A DNA stretch of 64,000 bases. Origin: Symmetrospora coprosmae. Taxonomy: Eukaryota > Basidiomycota > Cystobasidiomycetes > Symmetrosporaceae. Below, in pieces: positions 14,060 through 63,810 of this stretch. Each line of letters starts with the position of its first letter. Position 1 is the stretch's first letter. The position numbers were made by a program, and so were the translations under genes. The stretch covers positions 124,001-188,000 of the forward strand of contig VUYT01000031.1 in NCBI GenBank assembly GCA_008802785.1, given 5' to 3'. The notes under the pieces are model-generated. The model was not told the origin of the DNA, made no database searches, and was given only the letters and a program-made list of their open reading frames with translations.

Positions 14060-17000
14060 TCACTTGAAAAGACGGCCGATCTTGCCAAAGCGAGCTTTGG
14101 TAGGGCTTGGCGCGGCTTCTCCCCCTGCGCGCGTCTCGACATGGAATTTTGGCGCCATGACCGTCTCTAGGCGGAGAAGCTGTGGTTGTCGCGGCGTATC
14201 ATCGCCAAACACGCCCGCTGTGGGCGTCTCGGGCGACTGTGAAGCCGAATGATGACCCTCTCCTCGGCTGGAGCCGGAAGGCCGAAGCCGGTCGCTTGAG
14301 TGATGGTGACCCCCGCTCACGTGGCGATGGCTCGACCGCGGCTCGCTGATCAAGGACGAGTTGGCACTGTCCGTTGCTGCCTCACTTCCCGGTCCCGCAA
14401 CGACGTGATACGTCGTCGAGGGCTTCTCTCGCTCTCGCTCGCTAGACGAGCGGGGTGACCGTCCCGAAGGCGATGGCAAGCGAGGCGACTTGCGGTGGAC
14501 GGCCAGCTCGGATCCGAGCAGGGTGGACGATGGCGGTGCGAGGTGTCCACTGTACGCAGAAAGAGTAGACGAGGGCTTGTTGCGCAAAGTCGGCTCTTGT
14601 ATCGCAAGGGTAGCTGGTATAGGCTGCGTTGGGCTGTCCGCGCTAGTGTTCGAGGCGTGGTGTACGCTTGTATTCGGCGAGGCAGTCTCTTGTGACGAGA
14701 CTGCGAAAAGCTCCAGCATTAATGTCGTGTGCAAATGCGCTGCATGTAGTATAGGTCAATCATCCTCACCTTTTGTGAGTTCACGGCTGGAGCTACCCGC
14801 GGCGTTGTTGATCACTGTGCCTACGCTACTGATAGAACTAGCAGGGCGATGACCGGATGACGTGCCTGCGGGACGAGTGAGGGGCACCTCGTACGGCGAT
14901 ACCATCTTGTGTGTCCACATCTTCTGCAAGTTGGCCTCCTTCTCCTTGTCCTTGGCACGCTGCCCTTTAGTGACAGGCATTGTAGTCCTGGTCTCCTTGC
15001 CCAGAATTTCCCAGCTGTACTTTGCAGTTGATTGAGGACCCTCATGGCCGGTGGGGCTATGGCGGCGCGCATGCTGGGCGCTCAGGAGCTCGCGCTCCAT
15101 GGCCAGCGAGTCACCATATGCTGCGAGCTGCTGCGATAGCGATGGTCGACGCGCTTCGTCGGATGCAGTCGTGCGAGGCGTGTACGAAAGCAGTTCCTCC
15201 TCTTTCCGTTTGACCATCGAGTGGACTTGGGCATGTGTAACGGTATTGGCCTTGCTGCGAGACGACTCGGTGATCGATGAAGAGACGCTTGGAGCAGTTC
15301 GAGGAGGTGAGGATACGACGCTTGTCGCCGTCGTTGAGTTCGAAGGCTGGTACAGCGAATGAGAGGAAGAGCCTGTCGACATCCAGGGAGGAGGCCTGTT
15401 AGCACACAGCAGGTATTGTCGAGCAAAGCCCCATGGAACTTACCCGGAGAGGACGAATAATCGAAGTTGAGAAAGCGCGTAGGAACGGGACCTCCTTCTC
15501 CCAGAGAGCCGCTCCGACTCGTCCGCGTATCGGTCGTAGTCGAGCCGCTTCTGCTCGGTCTCGCAAAGCTAGCCCAGGTGGCATTACTGCTGCCGCCAAC
15601 GTGATCGCTTTCAGCGACAGCCGCTGGTTGCTGCTGGAAAGAACCCGACGACATGGCAGGCGACGCATTGCCGATGGACGCTCCGCCAGAGATGCTTCCG
15701 CTGCTCTGGTACGCGTTCGAGCTGGAAGCCGAGCCAATGCTGTCGACTCGGGCACGGCTGCCTGCCCTCGAGCGGGTCGCAAATGGCCTCTCCTGATTAG
15801 TTGGAAAAGTGTCTTCGCTCTCGCGTGCAGTCTCGGGATCCAACTCCTGCACCGACAATTCCTGCTCGATCTGGCCAAGCTCGTCGCGCTCTTGAGTCGT
15901 CTCTGCGTGCCCTTCCGTTCCCGCACTGCCTGAAGCACCGGCCGCTGAAGCTGGCGCGCCGTGACTCTGACTCCGCTGTCGAAAGTCGAAGGTCTGGTAC
16001 TCGAGCACGTCCGGCAATGACGAACGCACCCCAGACAGACCATCGCTCGAGGCGCGGGAGTGTCTATTGCCGGATGACGAGCCTGGTGGCGAGAATGCAG
16101 GCGTCCGGCTGCCGAAGCGGCTTGTCCCGGCCGCAACTGAGGAGTCGCCAGTGGCGGGCGGAGAGACGGGCGTGCGGGCTTGGTGCGAGTGCGACGGGTA
16201 CCTGGAAGTCCTATATGTCGATGCGGACGAATTCGCGGATGTGGCTTGCAGTGTTGGCCGGCGAACGATGACTGAAGGACCTGTGAGCGGCACACCATTT
16301 GCAGTCCCGTTCTCCTCCTCCTCGTCGTACACTGCCGTGTCGGGGTAGGAGGGGGAGAGGAGATGGCCATAATGGGTTCCACCTCCACTCTCTGCCACTT
16401 GCGACGAGTGGAGAAAGGTGCTGCGGTCCGCGAGCGTGCTTGCGGAGTTTGATAGCTGGCTCGACTTGCGCGGCCTGTAAAAGCCTGGTCGCGAGATGGG
16501 CGGGTTATTGTGGGCGGCGGAGATGGCAGCCTTGCTGAAGAAGGGCTGCGTGGACGACGAAGGCGGTGGTGGGATAGGCGCTGGAATGATTAAACTGGAG
16601 GAGGACGAGTGCGGGCTGAGCATGGGCCGGAAGCGAGCGAGATCACCACTTGATGTGTTCGCGGCCGGCGCCTCGTACTGGAAGAAGCTGGTCTGAGAAG
16701 GCGGGGCCGTTGTCGGGTGGTGCCCTGCTGAAGGCGGCGGTGGTCCCAATGCACCACCGCCTCCGCTGCTATAACCGCGATGGCTGACGCTGCGCCCACT
16801 TCCGCTGTTGTTTGTCGCTGCACTGCTTCCGCTTCCTGCCCTCGCTCGAGATCCCTGCGCTCCGTTGCCATATTGTCTCGAATATGGGTAATTCGACGAG
16901 AGCTGCTGGTGATAGCCTTCATCTGCAGAGCCATCTCTGTGGGCATCGCTCACACTATTCGTCCGCAGGAATGCATCACGTTCCGCCTGTTCGAGCTCGT

Positions 17001-18658
17001 CGTCGCCGGTGAAGAACGAAGACGCGGCAGGTGACAGCGGTTGGCTGATAGGTTCGTTGCTTCCTCGGTCCTTCCCATGGTGTCTAAACACGCTGGACAG
17101 GCTGGTCCGGCTTCCTGATCTCCGTGGCCGCTGAACAAGGTTATACGGGTCGTGCTCTTTGCCGCCGGACGCGGAGCCTGCGCGGCTCGAATGTCCGCTT
17201 GCGCCGCTTGCGGCGCTGGAAGTCATGCCAAGAGCTTGCTTGATGCTCTGCGAGGGATGAGCAGCCTTCTCGAAGACAGACGGAAGCGAAGGCCGCCTCG
17301 CCTTGTCGATATTGATGACTTGGTGAATGTGCGGCGCAACGCCGGAACCTGAGCCCGGAACAGTAGTCTGGCGAGCCATGTTATGCGCTCCGGATGTACC
17401 AGCAGAGTGCGACGCTGCCCTAAGCGGGTTTTGCCGCAGTGCGGTTGGCGTCGGTGCGAACGACGAAGCAAGGTTCTGTGCACCTGTATGCGTGACGTGC
17501 GAGCTGTGCTGGCTGCTGGTATTGGCGCCGAGCAGTCCAGCAAGATTCGGATTGGATGCTGCCTTGGCCAGCTTTTTGCCTTTGAGCGAGATGGACTCCA
17601 ATGAAGGCTTGATGGAGATCTTCTTGCTCGTGCTGGCGACACTGTGCATCGAAGCGGCCGACGATGCCAGCCTCGGCCCTCCGGCTGATGGGCTGAAGGA
17701 GCTGGACGACACAGATCTAGGCGAGGCAGGTGTCGAGCTACCCAGTAGCTTGCGTATTGCCGTGGATGCTCCGTCTCCACGCGCGGTCAAGCTCGATTCG
17801 CCTCCGTCTGAGCCCCTCCTTGCCGACGCGACGAGCTGTTGCTGCTGCATCTCGCCACTCCGTCTCCATGATTGGATGACTTCGGTGACGTTACTATGCC
17901 CGCCCTCCCTTGCCAGGTCCTCCGCAGTGAGACCGTGCTTCTCCTGAACATCCGGGTTTGCTCCATGTGCCAGAAGCAGTGTGACGACATTGGCGTGACC
18001 GTTTGCAGCGGCAAAGTGCAGTGGCGTGGATCCTGTCCGGTGCGTACAGTCCGGTCAGTCTCGCTCTACGCTACGGCGTATCTGCACTGGTACACGCACC
18101 GGCTGCTCCAATGCTACTCGCAGCTTTCGCTCTGTCGACATTGTACTTGCGCGGAAGCCTTGGGTGGCAGGGTAAGAAGTCAACGAGGAAGAAACGGTCT
18201 GGCGTGCAGCTCCCGGTCACTCACCTAGCAGCGTTGACATCCGCTCCCGCGTCAATGAGCATCTGTACGACGAGCTCACTGCCTGAACTAGCTGCAATGT
18301 GGATCGGCAGGACACCGTTAAGGACGCTGTTAACGGGCTGCCCGTGCATCAAGGCATATTTGACCAGGCCTGCGGGGCGAACGAGGAGACCCTCCGGTCA
18401 AGTCAATGTGCGCTGTAGCCTGGATCCTAAGGAGGGCCTGCCTCACCAATATTGCCATTGGCAGCAGCCGAGTGCAGCTGCAGATCCGGGCTGCGGCGAG
18501 TTGGTGACGACAGGGCGCGGCAGTGGTCAGCGGCAGTGCCAGGGTCAGCTCTGAGGCAGCAGTCCGCGCAGCCAGCAAGCGCTCGGAACCACTCACTAGT
18601 CTGTAGCGACACCATACTTGGCCTCTGCCTTCTGCACCTGCCGGGCTGACGGGGCCAT
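14060..18658 (-). CDS. Ankyrin-repeat protein with long Ser-rich C-terminus
   Basis: Seven exons on the minus strand, from 5' to 3': 18597..18658, 18447..18490, 18225..18369, 18100..18158, 15444..18032, 14770..15372, 14701-free end 14060..14700; 1380 aa, all phases consistent. The first four small exons and the start of the fifth encode ankyrin repeats: LQLHSAAANGNIGLVKYAL, LPIHIAASSGSELVVQMLID and then STPLHFAAANGHANVVTLLL with AHGANPD. Four repeat-like units fill about residues 20-180. The remaining 1200 residues are Ser/Pro/Gly-rich and disordered, with scattered basic clusters and one Lys/Glu-rich segment (MVKRKEEELLSY). It ends FGKIGRLFK. The architecture is seen in uncharacterised basidiomycete proteins; a signalling-scaffold role is only inferred. 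Acceptor and donor choices were fixed by reading frame. Confidence 0.78.
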
Positions 18659-19599: not shown

Positions 19600-22500
19600 C
19601 TACCGCGCGGATACGCTGCGAGATACGCTCGCTTCGGCCGCGGCTGCCTTCTCTCGCTCGCGGCTGTACTTCGTCATGGCATCCTTGATGCGCTCGAGCT
19701 CCTGCCCTCGTTCGTTCGTCTCGTCGACGAGAATCTGCAATTCGCGTGTCGATATCCTAGGCGCACTGCCATCAGCGGTGCCATTGGCAATGGACGCCTC
19801 GAACACGTCGAGCCTGCGACGGAGGCGCAAGTAGGCGGGGAAGAGCTCGTCGGAGAACTTCTGGCTATATCGGTGAAAGTCGGTATCGGACGCGATGACC
19901 ACAGCTGCTCGCGGTGGACTGCCCTGACCGGGCTGAGCTCCGGGAGAACGAGCCGGAGCGTCGGAAGAGTTGGGTGTAGTAGCGCGAGAAACGGTCCCTT
20001 CGCGCAGGAGCTCGGACGCTCGACCTGTCTTTTTCGCCTTGGCGCCGGCCACGCCCGACTTCTTCGAGAAGGAAGGGAGGCCATCCTTGTTCTTCTTGGC
20101 ATCATTCCTGGACGTTGATGCTGACGAGTCGTCGCTCGTCGTCCTAGGTCGCGAACTGCTCCCTGCCCGCGTCCGTACGGCGGCAGCCGCGGCGACTTGT
20201 CGGGCGTCCCTGGGCCGCTCTGGATTAGACTCCTCTGCCTCGCCCTCTTCGCCCTCCGAGCTCGTCCACACAATGTCGGCTCGGCTGCCCTCGGTCTTTT
20301 TCGAACCCGTCGCCTTCTTGAGGCGCTTGGCTGACGACTTGACGTCGCCCGGCCCAGTTCTGCGATCTTGCAACTGATCCGGCCTTGTTGCATTTGACTT
20401 GCCGTTAGGCATGCCGCCTTGAGCAAATCCGCTGCTTTGACTCGCAGCAATAGTCGACACGATTGGACTGCTTGCTCGAGAAGCGGGTGCAGACGTTGCC
20501 ACGCCGTCCACGATCTTCGACCGAAGCGACGCATTCGACGCAGACCGCTTCAGGCTGCCTTCCGAGGGCCTGGCAGTGCTCTGGCCAAAGGGCGGAATGA
20601 CCGTGCTGGGCTTGACAGGCAGAGGCGCTGGTGCAGGTGGCGCTGGACTTTGCCGAGCATTCACAGCCAAAGTATCACGTGCGCTCGTAGGGGCGGCAAT
20701 GACCGGCCTGGAAGAAGGGACTGGGCTGGGAGGCGCAGACTGTCCGGTGTCTGTCCCATCGTATGTCGGGCGTGGCCCAGGGCTGATCTTCGTAGCGAGC
20801 AATAACGGTGAACGGTTTGCGGCGATGGGCGATACGGTGGGCTTGGCGGGCAGAGAGGGGTGCGAGAGACCCGGTGAGCGGAGAGGCGAAGCCAGTTTGG
20901 TCTCTGTCATGTCTGCCGGTGAGCGAGCCACCGTTGGCACGGACAGCGTTAGGGACAGCTTGTCTGGCGGTGAGGGTGCGGTTGCTCCATTGGCGGTGGC
21001 AGGTCTGGTGGGAGGTGATGCAGCGCTTGCAGGAGAGACGTCAGAAATTCCGGGCCCGCTCTCCTTGTTGGTAGGCGGCGATGCAGATGCGGCCGACGGC
21101 GCTGGCGAGAGCGAAGTCGCCGATGGCGCAGGCGAAGCAGACTTGCTGCCTGCTTTAGAGCCCGGCGCTCGCTTCGGAAGCGGCTTCGACAGGCGCGTAC
21201 CGCCAGAAGTCCGGCCTTGCGTGCGCGGCCCGCCTCTAGGAGGGCTAGCTTGCACGCGAGTCTCGACGCCTGTTGTCTTGCTCGCGCTTATCTCTGGTTC
21301 CGGCGTCGCTGCCTTCCTCGTCTTAGCCTTCTTGGTGGCCGGCTGCGGCACTTGCAGACTGTCGTTACTGCCAGTGGCGTGAGCAGTCGTGCGTACCGCC
21401 TCATACTTTCGCTTGGCTATGCTCATCTCTGATGTCGATGAAGCAGATCGCTCATCTGACGAGACGGACGAAGCTCGGGACGAAGATGCCGTCGATGATA
21501 TCGTTGGCGGCATTTGCGGCCGAACTACGGCGGGAGCTGCAGCGCTGTCGACTCCCACGTCTTTGGACTTGCTGCCTGAGTTCACCGTGCTGGCCGGTTC
21601 AGGAGCTGCGCTAGGCACAGCGACCGCATCCGACTTGGTAGGCGAGACGCGCCTCGCCAGCGGCATGACGTCCTCCATCTCGTCATCCGAGCTGCTGGCA
21701 CTGGCGAGATCGTCGTCGTCGATGCGCGGCTTCGGAGGGGACTGCTTCAACTTCTGGGCGGCTGATACATCAGAGCTGGCCTCCTCAGCTTGCGTGTCGA
21801 GGAGGCGATGCACAGACGCGCTCGTCGCAGACGTGGAAGCGGACGCCTGAGTTGACGCAGAAGCGGAGCTATATGACGACGTTGACGAGGTCGATGAGGC
21901 CATCCTGACTTTCCCAGCTGCACCCGTCTGCCCAGTGCCCGCTTCGCGTTTTGCGTAGGGCAATGAAGCGGGCGCAGTGGTGGCCTGTTGTTGGGCGGTT
22001 GCTGCCACCTCTGCCTGCTCTGACAAGATCGCCTGCTTGTTCCGCTCCTTCTCGGCGTCGATCTTGGCCTGCTGCTCAGTCCGCTCCTTCTCCATCCGGC
22101 TCATGAGGCCCTTGGCTGCCTCGCTTGCGACGAGTCTGCTCGCAGGGCGTGGGGCAGGGCCAGAAGAGGCGCCGAGGAGTGGAGATGCACGAGGCGAAGA
22201 GCCTGCAGGAGACGCATGCCGTTGCGAACTGGCTGCAGAGGCGCGAAGGAGAGGCGACGCTGTCGTCCGGACCCGATAAGCTCAGTCCGTGCAGTGGCAA
22301 TCAGCCGTCGCGTATGAGCGAAGAGCAACGCACCTTTGGCGCCTATTGGGCCTGTCGACGAAGCAGAAGCGCCTTTCTTGCCCACTCGTGCACCCTTCTT
22401 GCCGCCACCCGCGCCTGGACGCAGCACGCCTGCTGCGTCGTCCAGGACGACCACCTTGCGCTTCTCCTTCTGCTTTTCGAGCTGTGCCGCGCGCTCGCGT

Positions 22501-38057: not shown

Positions 38058-41000
38058 ATGGAGGAGGAGAGGACGACAGATGGACGCGATTCTAGCCACA
38101 GGCAGCAGCAGCATCAGCAGCAGCAAAGACAGCAGAAGCTGCAGCACCAGCACCGCCAAGCAGCAGCAGCAGGGACAGCACCGCCGACGAGGTCACAATT
38201 CCTAGGATGCTTTGCATTGAGCAGGACAAAGAGCAGCAAGGCTGCCGCAGTGCTGAGGGAGGACGACGGCCTTCCGGAGCAGCTCAGGAAGCGGAAGCGG
38301 AGTCAACAGGAGGAGGGGCAGCAGCAGCATCCAGCGCCAGCAGCACAGACGAAACGGCAGAAGCTCGTGCGATGCGAGTCCATCGTCAGTATCTCGAGCA
38401 GTGTGAGTGTGCGCTGCTGTCTGTGCCGCTCCTGCTGCGAGCTGACGTGTATCGGCCTGATCTATACACAGGAATCCTCGTCATTTGACCCGACCGCGCT
38501 GCTCGCAGAGCACGAGGAGACACCCCAGCAGCGCATCACAGGCGCAGAGGACGACTGGCTGTTCACATCGTTCTCCAAGCACGCAACATCGGCATCGCAC
38601 TCTCCTACGAGAAGAGCGTCCGACTGCGATGCGACCAGACCGACGTCCCGGCGGACAGCGGCGCCAGCGGCCACCCCGGAGCTCGAAGAGGCACCGCTGT
38701 CAGAAGCAGAGAAGAGGGAGAGGCTGCGCCGGGCGGAGCTTGCACATGGTCATGGCCATGTAGCTGTTGCTGCTGTCCCGTCCTCGGCGGCTGCACCCGC
38801 TCGTCGCGTCCCCACCGTGGCCACGATCACGTCGCCGGCCCCGCCCCGCGACCGAGAGCACGAGCAGCACGAGGAGGCGTCCGACGCGCAACAAAAGCTA
38901 GCCCGGCACAGCAGCAGCAGCAGTGGCAGCTCCCGCAGCTGGAAGATCACGGATGCCGCTACGTCGGCCCTGCCGCCATTCTGCCCGCCGTCATTCGCAG
39001 GGCATACAGTCGCGCCACCTGCTGCCGTAGACCAGGAGGGACCGTCTGCGATTGCCGACACGCAGCAGCAGCAGCAGGTCCCTGACTCGGCGGAGAGCAC
39101 CAAGACTGCCTTCTTCAGCAGCCCCGCGCCCTCGAGTCAAGGCTCACTCGCTAGCAGTCGCAGCTGGTTACAGCTCGCACCTCCGTTGGACCCTGCAATC
39201 GCAAAGCCGACTGCAGTAGCGCCTGCATCTGCACCATCCTCACTGGTCCAGGCGCAAGCCACGGATGCTAGCACTCGAACGTCTCAACCCTCGAGCGGAG
39301 ACTGCGTGGAAGACTCGCAACGAGCTGGAGCGCCATCTTCGGCTGCGCCGGGACGAGCGACCCCAGAAGTGACAGCCAAGGAGGAGACTGCTCAGCCAGC
39401 AACGGCGATTAGTAGATCTGTAGATCTTGCAGCCAGCCAAGGCCGTCTTAGAGCCTCCCACGCAGCGGGCGGGACCACGTCGACTTCGGCAGCTTCGGTC
39501 GACGATTTGCCACGGTCTGCCAGCACAAGCGACAATGCCGCAGCAGGATCTCCGGAGCTCAGATCCACTTCACCAGAAGTGGTTGTTCCGAATCGAAGCG
39601 CCCGCCAGCCCGCTCGTCCGCCGCGCCTCGCAGCGACCATTGACACGGACGACGAGACGGCCAGCGACAATGCCCTCCGGCCCGACTTTGGCAAGAAGCG
39701 ACAGTCCCTCGCCAGAAGGAAGCCAAGAGACGCTCCTAGCGGAAGCCGCAGGGACAGCCAAGGCTCGGCGTCTGGAACGGAGACGCAGACGAGGAAACAT
39801 GGTCGTCGGAAGCTGAAGCTGCAGCTGCCTGCTGAGAGCGACACCCAGACGGACGGATCTCGGGCGTCTAGCGCGTCAGGCAGGCTAGCGATGGCTCTTG
39901 CCAAGCCGTTCGCCCGTAACCCGAACCCAACAAGAGAGGAGAAGATTGCGCTTGCTGCTCGCACAGGCCTGACAACGAGTAAGTCGGGTCATGACGCCTC
40001 TGTATCATTGATCAACCCGCTGATTCCCTCATTTCTACAGAACAAGTCGGCGATTACTACAGCAAGGAGCGGCGCCGTGCTGGTATTCCCACACTTCTCC
40101 GCCCTGGCCAATACCGTACATCAGCGTCGCTCGAACCGCTCGGCACGACCTCGGCCGTCTCGGATCGCACATCCTCCGGTAGCGGCAGTAGCAGCAGCGG
40201 TAGCGAAAGCGAGACTGAGCACGTTAATATCGTCGAAGAAGCAGATACGTACGATGATGCGCGGTACAAGGACGCTTCGTCGCGGCGCGTCAAGGCGGAG
40301 CTCGAGCGGGCGAAGAAGGAGCTGCAGCCATTCTTCCCCTCATCGTCTCTGACGTCCATCGCCGAGAGCGATGCATCCGCACATACGGTCACGCTTGCAG
40401 CTGGTACACGCCCTACCAAGTCAGCACGCAAGGAGAAGCTTGTTCGGGGCAGGCTCACTGCGGCGCAAAAGGGCAAAGGGCGCGCCATCGAGACGGCTAA
40501 GGCAGCAGAAAGCAGCACAGAGCATGACTTCAGCTTTGACGACACCGACATCGAGCCAAACAAAGTCCCCTCTCGGCCAGTTTCGCGCCTGGGTAGACCA
40601 GGTCGAGGACAGCCGAGTCGAGTGGGCCGAGCAGCATCGGGCCGTCCGCCCAGAAGCAGGCATGGCCCCGGCGGTCACATCAGCTACCAAGTGCCGGCCA
40701 GACCACCGACGTCATCGGGCGCCACCAAGCGCACGAAACTGGGTTCTGGACTCGTGCCCCCACCTGCCTTCGGCGAGGTCGAAGCCAATCCCGTGCGGTA
40801 TACTCGCTCGCGCACCTCGCTCGCTAATCCGAACGCGGCGCAGTGCCACCGCTGCGAGGCCTTCTACTCGAAGTCGGGCTGCTTCAAATGCATCACCTGC
40901 GTTGGCGCCGTGTGCCAGCGATGCCTCATTGAGCATTATTCGGACCAGGGCGTTTACATTGCCATCGTGGCTTTTCTCGTAAACAAGATGAGGGAGGAGC

Positions 41001-58882: not shown

Positions 58883-59818
58883 ATGAACCAGCCAGATGAG
58901 CCTCTGCTGCCGCCACAATACCGAACATACACCGCCTTCTCGCAGGCGGTGATCCAAGCCGCCTGCAACCGCGTCAGTGAGCATATAGACGGACTTGTCA
59001 CGCGTAAGTCGTCACTGGCCATTCCACCGTGGTGGAGTGGACCTCGGGCACCCCGAGGATGTGACCTGATCGCGCTTCTCAATCTCTCGACACGCAGAAG
59101 TGCCACAGAACGCAAACTTGCCGGATGACGACCGGGCCCCGCAAAATGGAGGAGTCGAGGTACTCCGTCGTCTCAGAGCACTCAGAGAGTTTGCACGAGA
59201 GGCCCAATGGGCGGGCCACTTGATCGAGCAATACCTGAACGGCTTCGTGGCGATCATCCAGCGTCTCGGCTGGGGAGTCGTCTCTGGGTGCCTGGCTGCA
59301 GCTGCAGGAGCCTTTTGGCTCTTCAGGCTGTTAGCTCGTGGCATTGCGGCAGCTGCTGGGCCTGCCGCTGAGGATGCTGGTGGAGCCGCCCTCCGATACT
59401 TCCATGCTCGGCGATACTTCACCTGGGCGGTGATGGTAGCCGCAGGTGCTGGGTGTGTGAGGGACGCGGCCCAGATTCTAGGCGCGCGGGAGGCCGACTT
59501 CACGGAGCGGCGCGATGCCAACATGCGTGTTCTTCTCGACCACTTGTTCGAAGAGGTCACTGTGAGCCCGCATGCCACTTTTGTCCGCGCTCATACGCCG
59601 CTACTTGCTGATTAGATCACCGCACCCAGACGGCACTCACAGACAGATACATGGCCCGAACCTTTGCCGGCATCCGCGACCCTGCAAATGCCCACCGGCT
59701 GCTAGAACAGCAGTTCGGACGACCGGAGCTCGTCAATGACACGAATGTTGCCGCAGTGTTCCGGGCCGTTCAGGACGCTGTGCAAGCGCAGGGGAACTGG
59801 GGACTGCCCGCCGCGTAG
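58883..59818 (+). CDS. Two-span membrane protein, hypothetical
   Basis: Three exons: 58883..59003, 59098..59561, 59630..59818; 257 aa, phases 1 and 0. The second acceptor (CCCAG at 59629) was chosen because it continues in frame to ALTDRYMARTFAGIRDPANA. Hydrophobic segments: about 105-130 (VVSGCLAAAAGAFWLFRLLA) and about 150-168 (FTWAVMVAAGAGC), separated by an Ala-rich loop. An N-terminal basic helix RRLRALREFAREAQWAGHLI and a polar C-terminus with ADFTERRDANMRVLLDHLFE are otherwise soluble. Not recognised as a known family; peroxisomal or mitochondrial membrane proteins can look similar. Confidence 0.6.
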
Positions 59819-60077: not shown

Positions 60078-63000
60078 CTACTGCACTTCGTGTGCGATGC
60101 TGCCTTGCAAAAGTCGTCTCTCTGACATACCACTCATTACAGCCGTCAACGCGGCGTCCTTCTTCTGCAAGTGCTTGAGCACCAGTCGCGCCAGCTTTTC
60201 CTGGCCCCCCTGATCGCCTTTCATTGTAGCTTTCGGCGATTCGAACGTCTCGTCGGCAATGCGGACGCTCAGCTGCATCGCTTTCGCCGCGCCACCGCTT
60301 CCCAGAGGCGCTGCATCTACCTTCCACTGCGGTGTTGGTCGCTTCGTTGCATTGCAATACTCTGCACCATGCGGAGGAGGAGGAGACTCTTCAGACTTGC
60401 ACGCTGCGCTCGGCATCTGCATAGACACCCGACTCACCTTCGAGCTGCACGACGTGCGACACTTTGAGCTTTGGCTGTGGCTTTGGCTTGTCCAGCGTGA
60501 TCTTGAGCTCGTCGTCCGACCCGCTGTCCTTGCCCAGCTCCTCCGCCTGCGCTGCCCTTCTCGCCGGAATAGTATCCTCGCGCTCCTGCTTGACCTGTGC
60601 GGCATGCGCCAGATCAACCGCGAGCTCCCCCCTCGGCGCCAGTGCTTTCAGCATCGTGAGCTTGAGCTTGCCGATGATGTCGTCCTCGAGCGCCATGCGA
60701 GAGACTGCGTCTTTGGCGGCGGCTTTGCCCGTGTAGATCATGTCCGTTTTGTAGATCGAGACCGGACTGGTCTTGACTGTTAGAAAGGCGCCGTACAGCG
60801 CTTCGAGAAGAGCGGGAGGAAAGTTGGGTCAGCCACGAAACAGCAGTAGCGTTGAAGCACAGCCACACCCACTGGTGTGCTCCTTCGTGGTTAGGTCATA
60901 ATGCGGTCGCTCCGCGTCTTCATGACCCAGAAAGAGCTGGCAGACCTGATGCAGGTAGCTGACCGGCTGACTGAACGGATCCACTTTCACCTCTGGCGAA
61001 TCTTCACGAGCCAAAGCTGGCGGTCCATCTGGGGCTTCTCGCCTCCTCCTGGCGATCGCAGCAGGACCCCATTCCCTGTCAATGAGTGCCAGCAGACCCT
61101 CATGTACCGCCTTCTGCGCCGCTGCCTCTTGAGCCAGTCTGCGATTAGGATAGGACAGCGGGGTGGAGAAGGCGTACTCTTTCCCAGCTGGATCACGAAG
61201 CAGCATGGTCCCGCCGTACAAGCTGCCATCGGCCGATGTTTGACACGTATAGGAGATGTGATCCGCCTTTGCCGCGTCCCCGATCTTGCTTGTGGCTTTC
61301 TCATCGATCGCAGTCATGTACGTCTGCGCTGCCGACGTCTGCGCACTTATCTGAAGGTACTGCGAAACGTCCGCAGCGAAATGTCTTGTCCGCTCTGCTG
61401 GTCCGGAGCTTGTGCTAGAATCTGCACTGAGTATAGCACTCGTCTCTCCACTGGCCGGGTAGCCTCCTCGAGTTTGCTGCTGAGACAAGTACTGCTGGCG
61501 TGCTACCAGCGGATTGGAAGAGAGACTCGGCTGAGTGGGTGCCCATCGCCCGCCATCACCTGCTTGCGACGGTCTAGCCGTCCGCGTATCGACGTAAGGT
61601 GGTGGTGCCGTCAAAGCCTCGTGTGTGACGGGCGCTTGCACGACCGGTACCAAAGGGCGGCTGTTGGCGAACGTGGCATATGGATACGAGCCAGCGTCGC
61701 CACTGACGCCTGTCGGGATATCGTCTGCTCTGTAAAGATTCGGATAGCCGCCCGGTCCTGCGAGAATGTGCCCGAACAGGTCATCGCTTCGATGAGAGCC
61801 AGTCGTGCTGCTGGGAGTTCCGGAACGAGATAATGAAGATGACGGAGCGAGCGATGGCGACCGTCCAAACTTGCTGACCTCCTTGGCTTGCTTCGCTTCC
61901 TCTACCAAGCCCTGCTTGACAGCCAGCTTGGCGACGCTCTCCTTGGCTGCCTTCTTTGTCGGAAATTCGGGTACAATTTCGTACCGTAGGACTCGCATAT
62001 CTGCCAGTCTTGCCGTCAGTGTGCAGCCGAAGCGTGCGTCTGCCGTTCCGTGAATCAGTGCTGTGCTGTGCTGCATGCTAGCCAGACCCTTGACTGGATG
62101 GCACTTACTGATGCTGCGAGCGAGAGTATGCATCGGGCCAATCTCGGAAAACTCAAAAGCAAGAACGTCTGGTCGTCCGGTGTAGGCTTGCATAGAGACA
62201 TTCAGGTATGCCACAGCGCTGAAGTGTTTAGACAAGTCAGCTTGCGCCCGCTCAAACCCGACACTGATCACAGTCTCGGGGACCCACTTCTCCAGATAGT
62301 CCGCATCTTCCGGCTGAACCGTACTCGCCTTCGGCGGGATAAGCGACGAGAACCCAGCCTGCCTCGGACCCAGTCTGTTGATTGCGAGCGTCGACGCCTG
62401 CAGAAGCCGCCGTTGTGCCTCCAGCTCAGCCTTAAGGCCAGACCGCGCTGCAAGTCTGCACACTGCCTCCTTTGCATCCTTCTTCGATTTAAGACAGGGC
62501 GACATGTCGTAATGCCGCACGTCGTCCGGCTTGATGGCGATACGGAGCTTGGCGCCATGCAGTTCCGCTGCAGATGGAGTAAGTACATCAGTCGGAGTCG
62601 TGATGCAGAGCACATGCGGACGGTGAAGACGCACTGCCGTCTCGTATTGCTGACGTGTACTCGCACTCCATGGCCAGCGGGTTCCTCGTCACCTCCTGCA
62701 CCAGCTGCCCCAGCGTACCTGCCGAGTTCTCCTCTTCGACGGGATCGTGCTCCTCTAGAGTCAGCGGGACTGGTACGCCCAGCTGCCGGCATATCTTGCT
62801 TGTGAAGGAATTGTGCAGCTTTAGCAGCGTGACGATCCCTTCTTGGAGAGCGAGGCGGGTTGCTGCCTCCTTGGCGGCTTTTGCGGAAGTGAAATCGACA
62901 TTTGTGCGGTACATCTCGTGGAAATCGGGCGTTGTGCGGACCGTTAGGGTGCAGCCGTGGAGGCGATAATTCCCGACGGCTACATCAGGGTTGTGAGCGT

Positions 63001-63810
63001 CAGGGAAGGGGGAGGACTAGCTAACAAGCCCAGCCCGTGCTCACGGGACGATCCGGACTCGTGTGCATACAGCAGAGCGTGCGAGGGTGTTTCGACGCAA
63101 TACCTCTGGACAGCCAGGTTTAACGCCGTGACAGGATTCTGCGCAGATGCGACCGTTTCTTCTTCCTGGTTGCTAAGGATGGGGACGATGTTGAATCGCT
63201 CATCTCGCCTCGGCAGCGGCTTCGGGCGGAAATGGGGCGCATTGTCCGTGCCGATTCGGTCAGTCTGCGCCATGCTTTCCTGTGCGAGGTCGAGAATGCC
63301 TTTGTGTAGGGCATACTCGGACACCGCACGCTTCGCAGCGCGCTTCGAAGGGAAGGCTGCCTCAGAGGTATATGTGCGAGTCCCGCTTGGCGGGATAGCG
63401 AGCGTCAGCTTGCAGATATAGCTTCGCTTCGCTGCGTTCCTGTAGCAGTGATAGATTGGCGCCTGAGGCGAGACCTTCCGCCAGAACTTCTGGAGATACA
63501 GCGTAGGGCTACGTGCGTGTGCAAGAAGTGATAGAGTCAGTCAGCAACGAGCCCGTCCGACTTGAGGAAGGCCAAACAGCTTGACAACGCACTTGGTCAT
63601 GCGCTCGTCCGGGTCATCAACCAGGTCCCGGTAGGGCTCCTGCGTGTCCATGTCCGAGCCAGACTCGTCGCTGAGGACTGCAGGATCGCCATCGACTCGC
63701 AATGTTGATTCCAGACTGACTTCCATCCTGCTGCCTTTTCGGAAGCCCACTCCAGATGGGTCGCCGAGGCCCTCGCCGCCACCATCACCCTGTACGTAGA
63801 AGTCCGTCAT
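60078..63810 (-). CDS. Protein with seven dsRNA-binding-domain-like repeats
   Basis: Seven exons, 5' to 3': 63562..63810, 63045..63489, 62635..62979, 62109..62567, 60873..62039, 60438..60800, 60078..60361; 1103 aa, all phases closing (0, then 1 five times). Repeats follow the dsRBD plan: an N-terminal helix, three strands, then a conserved final helix with KKxAKxxxxxxAL. The helices are recognisable as KRAAKRAVSEYALHKGI, AKAAKEAATRLALQEGI, KKDAKEAVCRLAARSGL, KKAAKESVAKLAVKQGL, RRLAQEAAAQKAVHEGL, KAAAKDAVSRMALEDDI and, less canonical, GQEKLARLVLKHLQ, at roughly residues 130, 270, 385, 530, 795, 930 and 1075. A Ser/Pro/Gln-rich linker of about 170 residues separates the fourth and fifth. No helicase, RNase III or deaminase domain is seen. 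RNA binding is inferred from the fold only; the lysines that contact RNA are variable, so some repeats may mediate protein contacts. Start at ATG 63810. Confidence 0.75.

Follow-up and report, generated by a model that had tools for sequence, protein, structure and literature searches.

A predicted protein of Symmetrospora coprosmae with an array of very diverged dsRBD-type repeats, six homologous to one another and a seventh less certain, and no detectable catalytic domain

The DNA analysed here, referred to as the window, is a stretch of 64,000 nucleotides from the basidiomycete Symmetrospora coprosmae (GenBank assembly GCA_008802785.1, contig VUYT01000031.1, positions 124,001 to 188,000 of the forward strand). 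Towards its right end, a gene on the minus strand that starts with an ATG at 63810 and whose stop codon ends at 60078 is predicted to encode a protein made up of repeated units of the double-stranded RNA (dsRNA)-binding domain (dsRBD) type. The limits given in a preliminary description of the locus, made from the sequence alone, turned out to be exactly those of the coding region. The predicted gene comprises seven exons and six GT..AG introns, and a three-frame translation joined at the splice sites rendered one open frame of 1099 codons, that is, 1099 amino acids (aa). Introns 1 to 6 measure 84, 65, 67, 69, 72 and 76 bases, respectively, all with GTRNGY donors, the first being in phase 2 and introns 2 to 6 in phase 1. 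In window positions, the features of the spliced model, on which the exons rest, are as follows.

60078 to 63810, minus strand: whole coding region, seven exons, 1099 aa (spliced model and splice alternatives)
63593 to 63810, minus strand: exon 1, an acidic tail at the N-terminus followed by the opening residues of repeat 1
63045 to 63508, minus strand: exon 2, repeat 1, linker, and alpha-1/beta-1 of repeat 2
62635 to 62979, minus strand: exon 3 (phase 1-1), second half of repeat 2 and first half of repeat 3
62109 to 62567, minus strand: exon 4 (phase 1-1), second half of repeat 3 and first half of repeat 4
60873 to 62039, minus strand: exon 5 (phase 1-1), second half of repeat 4, the long linker, repeat 5, and first half of repeat 6
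60438 to 60800, minus strand: exon 6 (phase 1-1), second half of repeat 6, a linker, and the opening residues of repeat 7 (the exon follows the AAG acceptor, the weakest splice site)
60078 to 60361, minus strand: exon 7, remainder of repeat 7 and C-terminal tail

The splice sites were chosen by frame, donor, branch motif and acceptor, and those of introns 1 and 5 also by restoration of a repeat, while the alternatives considered were frame-keeping GT..AG pairs at no more than 60 bases from each site. Introns 1, 2 and 3 have one option each with a GTRNGY donor and a YAG acceptor. There are three options for intron 4: the shortest lacks a branch motif, and the longest, as read from the sequence, would cut the beta-2 strand out of repeat 4. 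Intron 5 ends at an AAG acceptor, the weakest splice site of the model; with its sole CAG alternative, repeat 6 would, by the same reading, lose its beta-2 strand. For intron 6 there are three acceptor options, none of them with a branch motif as defined by a simple pattern, and the front half of repeat 7 is present only if this intron ends at 60362, the other two acceptors deleting that half. The repeats were delimited and assessed with a hidden Markov model (HMM), with dsRBD profiles, with structure prediction and with the lysine motif of helix 2, as indicated for each.

63286 to 63600, minus strand: repeat 1, aa 71-147, KRAAK kept; AlphaFold alpha-beta-beta-beta-alpha, pLDDT 83 (HMM, AlphaFold, Foldseek, motif)
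62825 to 63141, minus strand: repeat 2, aa 196-279, AKAAK (HMM, dsRBD reference profile, motif)
62425 to 62725, minus strand: repeat 3, aa 313-390, KKDAK (HMM, dsRBD reference profile, motif)
61897 to 62223, minus strand: repeat 4, aa 458-543, KKAAK and the sole GPxH (GPMH), the most canonical RNA-binding unit by these motifs (HMM, reference profile, motif)
61330 to 61896, minus strand: linker of 189 aa, Ser/Pro-rich, between repeats 4 and 5 (sequence)
61084 to 61329, minus strand: repeat 5, aa 733-814, RRLAQ; AlphaFold pLDDT 76 (HMM, AlphaFold, Foldseek, motif)
60667 to 60975, minus strand: repeat 6, aa 851-929, KAAAK (HMM, dsRBD reference profile, motif)
60162 to 60462, minus strand: repeat 7, aa 998-1072, dsRBD-like in its front half and with the lysine motif lost (DQGGQ), the least certain unit (HMM, hhalign, reference profile, splice alternatives, motif)

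Sequence comparison indicates that repeats 1 to 6 are homologous to one another. In a leave-one-out HMM test they scored 41.2, 47.7, 32.5, 34.5, 17.9 and 30.0 bits, respectively, the best shuffle of each reaching 10.0, 8.9, 9.2, 9.8, 12.3 and 7.4 bits, so that the real score was attained by none of the shuffles (1835 to 1983 of 2000 were scored per unit). Pairwise identity among these six is 16-30%. Repeat 7 was not recognised by the other six in the same test (-0.5 bits, with 596 of 1926 scored shuffles as good), and its hhalign comparison with the six-repeat profile rendered a score of 13.4, equalled by 24 of 300 shuffles; this is a weak test, since a Pfam-recognised dsRBD of the same genome, in a protein of contig C75 that we take to be mL44, scores lower (10.7). 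The front half of repeat 7, LEEYCNATKRPTPQWKV, aligned with model positions 6-22 of the dsRBD profile with a score of 19.1, the best of 200 shuffles scoring 18.9. The case for repeat 7 as a dsRBD is therefore weaker, resting on this narrow front-half match and on the choice of the intron 6 acceptor. Thus, where seven dsRBD-like repeats in one gene had been described, six stand as a homologous set and the seventh is retained by that narrow match.

The repeats are of the dsRBD type, as judged by profile comparison, and very diverged. A dsRBD reference profile was built from 73 sequences (one consensus written by ourselves, 12 eukaryotic pieces and 60 bacterial pieces), and the six-repeat profile aligned with it along 64 columns that span helix 1 to helix 2, with a probability of 94 and an expectation value (E) of 1.1e-7 that refers to a single comparison; the reversed six-repeat alignment rendered a probability of 16 over 15 columns. 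When single units were compared with the reference, no shuffle out of 200 was as good for units 1 to 5 and 7, and two were for unit 6, two linker controls being at chance level (48 and 38 of 200 shuffles as good). Units 1 and 2 aligned over 64 and 67 columns with probabilities of 54 and 55, and the remaining units over 10-19 columns with probabilities of 3 to 33.

Searches of the PDB with profiles, at E up to 10, point in the same direction. The seven-unit profile retrieved 13 rows, nine of which, including the best eight, are dsRBD or Dicer proteins, with TARBP2 as the best row (E 0.011). The same profile matched an ancestral Dicer construct at its residues 555-628, which we read as DUF283 (Dicer_dimer, PF03368), a domain of the same fold class as the dsRBD; this array differs from Dicer in having no Pfam-detectable helicase or RNase III, and PF03368 was not called in it by Pfam. 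With the profile of repeats 1 to 6, 13 rows were also obtained, 10 of them dsRBD or Dicer proteins and three others. The best was the dsRBD of Dus2 (8b02, E 0.0035), a tRNA-modifying enzyme with one dsRBD, and the other 12 rows had E 0.19 to 3.2. HYL1, a member of the plant DRB proteins, which have fewer than seven dsRBDs, appeared in both searches. Repeats 1 to 6 reversed as a control gave a single unrelated row (E 2). The weight of these results lies in the agreement among rows and not in individual E-values.

No Pfam family was found at E up to 10 in the whole protein or in the seven unit pieces, and PF00035 (dsrm) had no match above its gathering score in either. A second Pfam scan of units 1 to 6 gave only PF15539, in unit 1 (E 0.26, and 11 bits where the cut-off is 27), and NCBIfam gave one weak row for the same units (NF052256, E 0.16), both of which were taken as chance. 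Single-sequence phmmer of the full protein against the PDB rendered no rows at E up to 10, and hence no dsRBD of any family, and repeat 7 searched alone in the PDB as a single sequence rendered none either. By profile and by predicted topology, then, the protein is placed in the dsRBD fold superfamily, and by score it is not a member of Pfam dsrm. The absence of a catalytic part, as previously proposed, was borne out at the sensitivity of Pfam, no domain of the RNase III, ADAR, PKR or DHX9 type being among its results.

Structure prediction was carried out for two of the seven units, repeats 1 and 5, AlphaFold being given contiguous pieces aligned with the corresponding pieces of the other units. 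The model of repeat 1 shows the order helix-strand-strand-strand-helix, with a predicted local distance difference test (pLDDT) of 83.0 and a predicted template modelling score (pTM) of 0.70, and that of repeat 5 shows the same alpha-beta-beta-beta-alpha order with the first helix split (pLDDT 76.4, pTM 0.58). Among the best 30 Foldseek rows of repeat 1, 28 are proteins with dsRBD-type domains and two are complexes of phage T7 Gp1.2; the Dicer, Drosha, DHX29 and mitoribosome chains were counted among the former as proteins that bear dsRBDs, and the others by title. The lowest E was 0.024, for HYL1 dsRBD1, and the closest superpositions were with DHX29 and Dus2 (template modelling score, TM, 0.67 and 0.64, respectively; root-mean-square deviation 1.7). 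For repeat 5, the first two rows were DHX29 and DRB2, and unrelated folds appeared from row 3, rendering a mixed list. Foldseek support for these models is thus convincing for repeat 1 and mixed for repeat 5. A viral fold search with repeat 1 was also mixed, its top row being a moumouvirus DRBM protein (E 0.013), and a viral origin of this repeat was not inferred.

The residues expected to contact RNA are unevenly kept. The preliminary description had placed the KKxAK helix motif in all seven units, which did not hold, as [KR][KR]xA[KR] occurs three times in the 1099 aa, each time where helix 2 begins, in repeats 1, 3 and 4. Repeats 2 (AKAAK) and 6 (KAAAK) have the motif in part, with two of the three lysines each, repeat 5 has arginines and a glutamine (RRLAQ), and repeat 7 keeps none of it (DQGGQ). 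GPxH, which is the Region 2 loop motif of RNA-binding (type A) dsRBDs, is found once in the protein, as GPMH at aa 486-489 (window 62128-62139, minus strand), in the beta-1/beta-2 region of repeat 4; it lies just past strand beta-1, seven residues before the residue split by intron 4. The full set of contact motifs is therefore present in repeat 4, the lysines without the loop in repeats 1 and 3, a partial set in 2 and 6, and a weak or lost one in 5 and 7. Type B dsRBDs are described, in PMC5716075, as lacking the two critical Region 3 lysines and binding proteins. From these motifs repeats 1, 3 and 4 seem to resemble type A and repeats 5 and 7 type B, with 2 and 6 intermediate. The isoelectric points (pI) of repeats 1 to 7 are 10.1, 7.1, 8.5, 8.9, 6.1, 6.0 and 9.3, respectively, repeats 1, 3, 4 and 7 being basic, repeat 2 neutral and repeats 5 and 6 slightly acidic.

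The exon borders bear on how the array arose. Introns 2, 3, 4 and 5 are located 8, 4, 4 and 3 residues ahead of the conserved start of beta-2 in repeats 2, 3, 4 and 6, respectively; in repeats 1, 5 and 7 this zone is free of introns. A simple binomial, with a zone picked post hoc, puts the chance of at least four of the six introns falling there at 3e-5, or at 4.5e-4 if the width of the zone is doubled. Exons 3, 4, 5 and 6, which are all phase 1-1, each open with the back half of one domain and close with the front part of another. Since exons of this class can be duplicated in frame, the array would most likely have grown by in-frame tandem duplication of such exons. Because all six introns are located inside units, the locus cannot be divided at any of them without breaking domains, and it is unlikely that it should be split into several genes; the common phase and site of introns 2 to 5 likewise suggest growth by exon duplication and argue against a split locus.

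The genome measures 20 Mb and is distributed in 77 contigs, designated here C followed by a number; this size and the short introns are consistent with a fungus and with a basidiomycete. To the left, the neighbours include SRP68, a FYVE protein and phosphatidylserine decarboxylase, and to the right, beyond the window, MFAP1; of ten open frames scanned, six were without a Pfam match. An open frame of 171 aa with hydrophobic stretches and no Pfam match lies close to the gene's 3' end, at 59100-59615 on the plus strand. Further open frames of 922, 834 and 764 aa, at 15082-17850 (minus), 19600-22104 (minus) and 38058-40352 (plus), respectively, have no Pfam match at E 0.001. Rfam gave no match in the window. 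A protein search of the same genome for a paralogue returned the gene itself alone, the best candidates having been scored, so that a distant one could be missed, and no relative was present among 34 pattern-bearing stretches of viral contigs when residues 1-552 of the 1099 were used as the query.

As regards RNA interference (RNAi), contig C7 bears a Dicer dimer match besides two RNase III matches, RNase III also matches on contigs C49, C22 and C33 and, weakly, on C74, and there are Piwi matches on C35 and C10 and RNA-dependent RNA polymerase (RdRP) matches on C2 and C55. In the Dicer-like gene (C7:21501-31500, minus strand), the sole dsRBD-like stretch past the last RNase III match is at chance level (score 4.3, E 2.8). 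The idea that the array protein compensates for a Dicer without a dsRBD was dropped as unproven, that stretch neither showing nor excluding a dsRBD. On C33, at about 384700-386930 (minus strand), two tandem RNase III-like stretches each have FEAY(I/V)GGL followed by a dsRBD match, and probably represent a gene duplication. At E 0.001 the Pfam dsRBD model recognises three places in the whole genome, two on C33 and one on C75, and the gene described here is not among them.

The best explanation, to which we give about even odds, is that the gene encodes a non-catalytic dsRBD-array protein acting as a dsRNA-binding scaffold, the front half serving for RNA and the back half mainly for partners. 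Repeats 1 to 4 would hold the dsRNA backbone by avidity, with repeat 4, which combines the GPMH loop and KKAAK, as the strongest RNA site and repeats 1 and 3 assisting through their alpha-2 lysines. Repeats 5 to 7, beyond the 189-aa linker, would mainly serve, as type-B-like modules, to dimerise or to hold a partner; this type is proposed for repeats 5 and 7 because the motif lysines are lost there, repeat 6 keeping two of the three. The last dsRBD of TRBP, PACT, Loqs and Staufen, which dimerises or holds a partner, is the model for such a role. The protein resembles TRBP, PACT and Loquacious also in its mixture of units with and without the RNA-contact lysines, one unit of those proteins being of type B according to PMC5716075, and differs from them in that they have three dsRBDs and very distant sequences. 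Both dsRNA binding and RNAi as the pathway are inferences; an RNAi partner is possible given the Dicer, Argonaute and RdRP domain matches in the genome.

Several observations weigh against this explanation. GPxH is missing from six of the seven units, so that RNA binding may be weak or lost. The division into front and back halves is not clean, since repeat 7 is basic (pI 9.3) without the lysine motif and repeat 2 is neutral, and repeat 6 retains as much of the motif as repeat 2 does. Single units reach hhalign probabilities of only 3-55, where two dsRBDs of this genome that Pfam does recognise reach 94 and 97, and the margin over the best shuffle is 1 or less for units 3, 4, 5 and 7. Individual PDB rows are weak (best E 0.011 with seven units and 0.0035 with six, the rest of the latter being at 0.19-3.2), no Foldseek match at E 0.001 or better was obtained for the model of repeat 1 or 5, and the list of repeat 5 is mixed. 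Finally, nothing links the gene to RNAi, and its named neighbours look housekeeping.

Some of these observations would also be accounted for if all units had turned into type-B protein-interaction modules, the protein being a multivalent adaptor that no longer binds RNA. We regard this as a tentative alternative, consistent with the absence of GPxH in six units, with a lysine motif incomplete in four of the seven, with identities down to 16-30% among units 1 to 6 and with their invisibility to the Pfam dsRBD model. It does not easily explain why the basic KxxAK face is kept in repeats 1, 3 and 4, together with GPMH in the last of these, when no other such motifs exist in the 1099 residues. For repeats 5 and 7 by themselves, a role as protein-interaction modules may well apply.

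It is rather unlikely, and a little less probable than such an adaptor, that the protein is a Staufen-like transport or stability factor for mRNA or structured RNA, working outside RNAi; this possibility overlaps with the scaffold explanation, so that the odds given to the different readings do not sum to one. Like Staufen, the protein has several dsRBDs in an array, no enzyme domain and a degenerate last unit, as PMC6477676 describes for Staufen, and Staufen dsRBD5 is among the Foldseek rows of repeat 1. It differs in having seven units, and no sequence relation was detected, since phmmer of the full protein rendered none of the Staufen dsRBDs present in the PDB at E up to 10, in a search that found no dsRBD whatsoever.

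Slightly more doubtful still is a further reading, in which the gene would belong to a fungal family of dsRBD arrays grown by duplication of circularly offset phase 1-1 exons, its members being cofactors of Dicer or Argonaute and counterparts of R2D2, Loqs and TRBP with dsRBDs below the sight of Pfam.

A decayed or wrongly joined gene is very improbable. The use of an AAG acceptor in intron 5 in spite of a CAG alternative, and an intron 6 with two further acceptor options and no simple branch motif, could be taken in its favour, but 1099 codons are open across seven exons, the 65-84-base introns all have GTRNGY donors, they are located inside repeats that their removal restores, and the CAG alternative would cost repeat 6 its beta-2 strand. 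Least probable of all is a different alpha/beta fold mimicking the dsRBD pattern, for which the lack of a Pfam dsRBD match, the best Foldseek E of 0.024 for repeat 1 and the mixed list of repeat 5 could be cited, since sequence profile, profile-profile comparison, AlphaFold and the Foldseek rows of repeat 1 all indicate a dsRBD; the topology predicted for repeats 1 and 5 thus speaks for the fold originally proposed, with the Foldseek result convincing only for the former.

According to PMC4551942, type-1 dsRBDs number one to five per protein, and a Hydra ADAR with five is mentioned as unpublished in PMC11334849. Among the matches listed from the open PubMed Central literature, no protein with more than five dsRBDs and no fungal dsRBD-array protein was recognised, and phrases for six or seven dsRBDs were absent. 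Databases hold many unnamed basidiomycete 'DRBM domain' proteins, and similar arrays may already be deposited there.

The earlier statement that the number of units exceeds that of known multi-dsRBD proteins is thus upheld by a count of seven fold units, six of them demonstrably homologous, against one to five; the count is three if the full lysine motif is required, as only three units keep it. If dsRBDs as diverged as these are common in fungi, domain databases would undercount dsRNA-binding proteins there, a doubt that has also been raised for fungal Dicer domains in PMC12663654. The genome has RNAi genes, and within it the gene offers a candidate dsRNA-binding scaffold that can be tested; it is also a likely instance of domains multiplying through duplication of exons that begin and end inside a domain.

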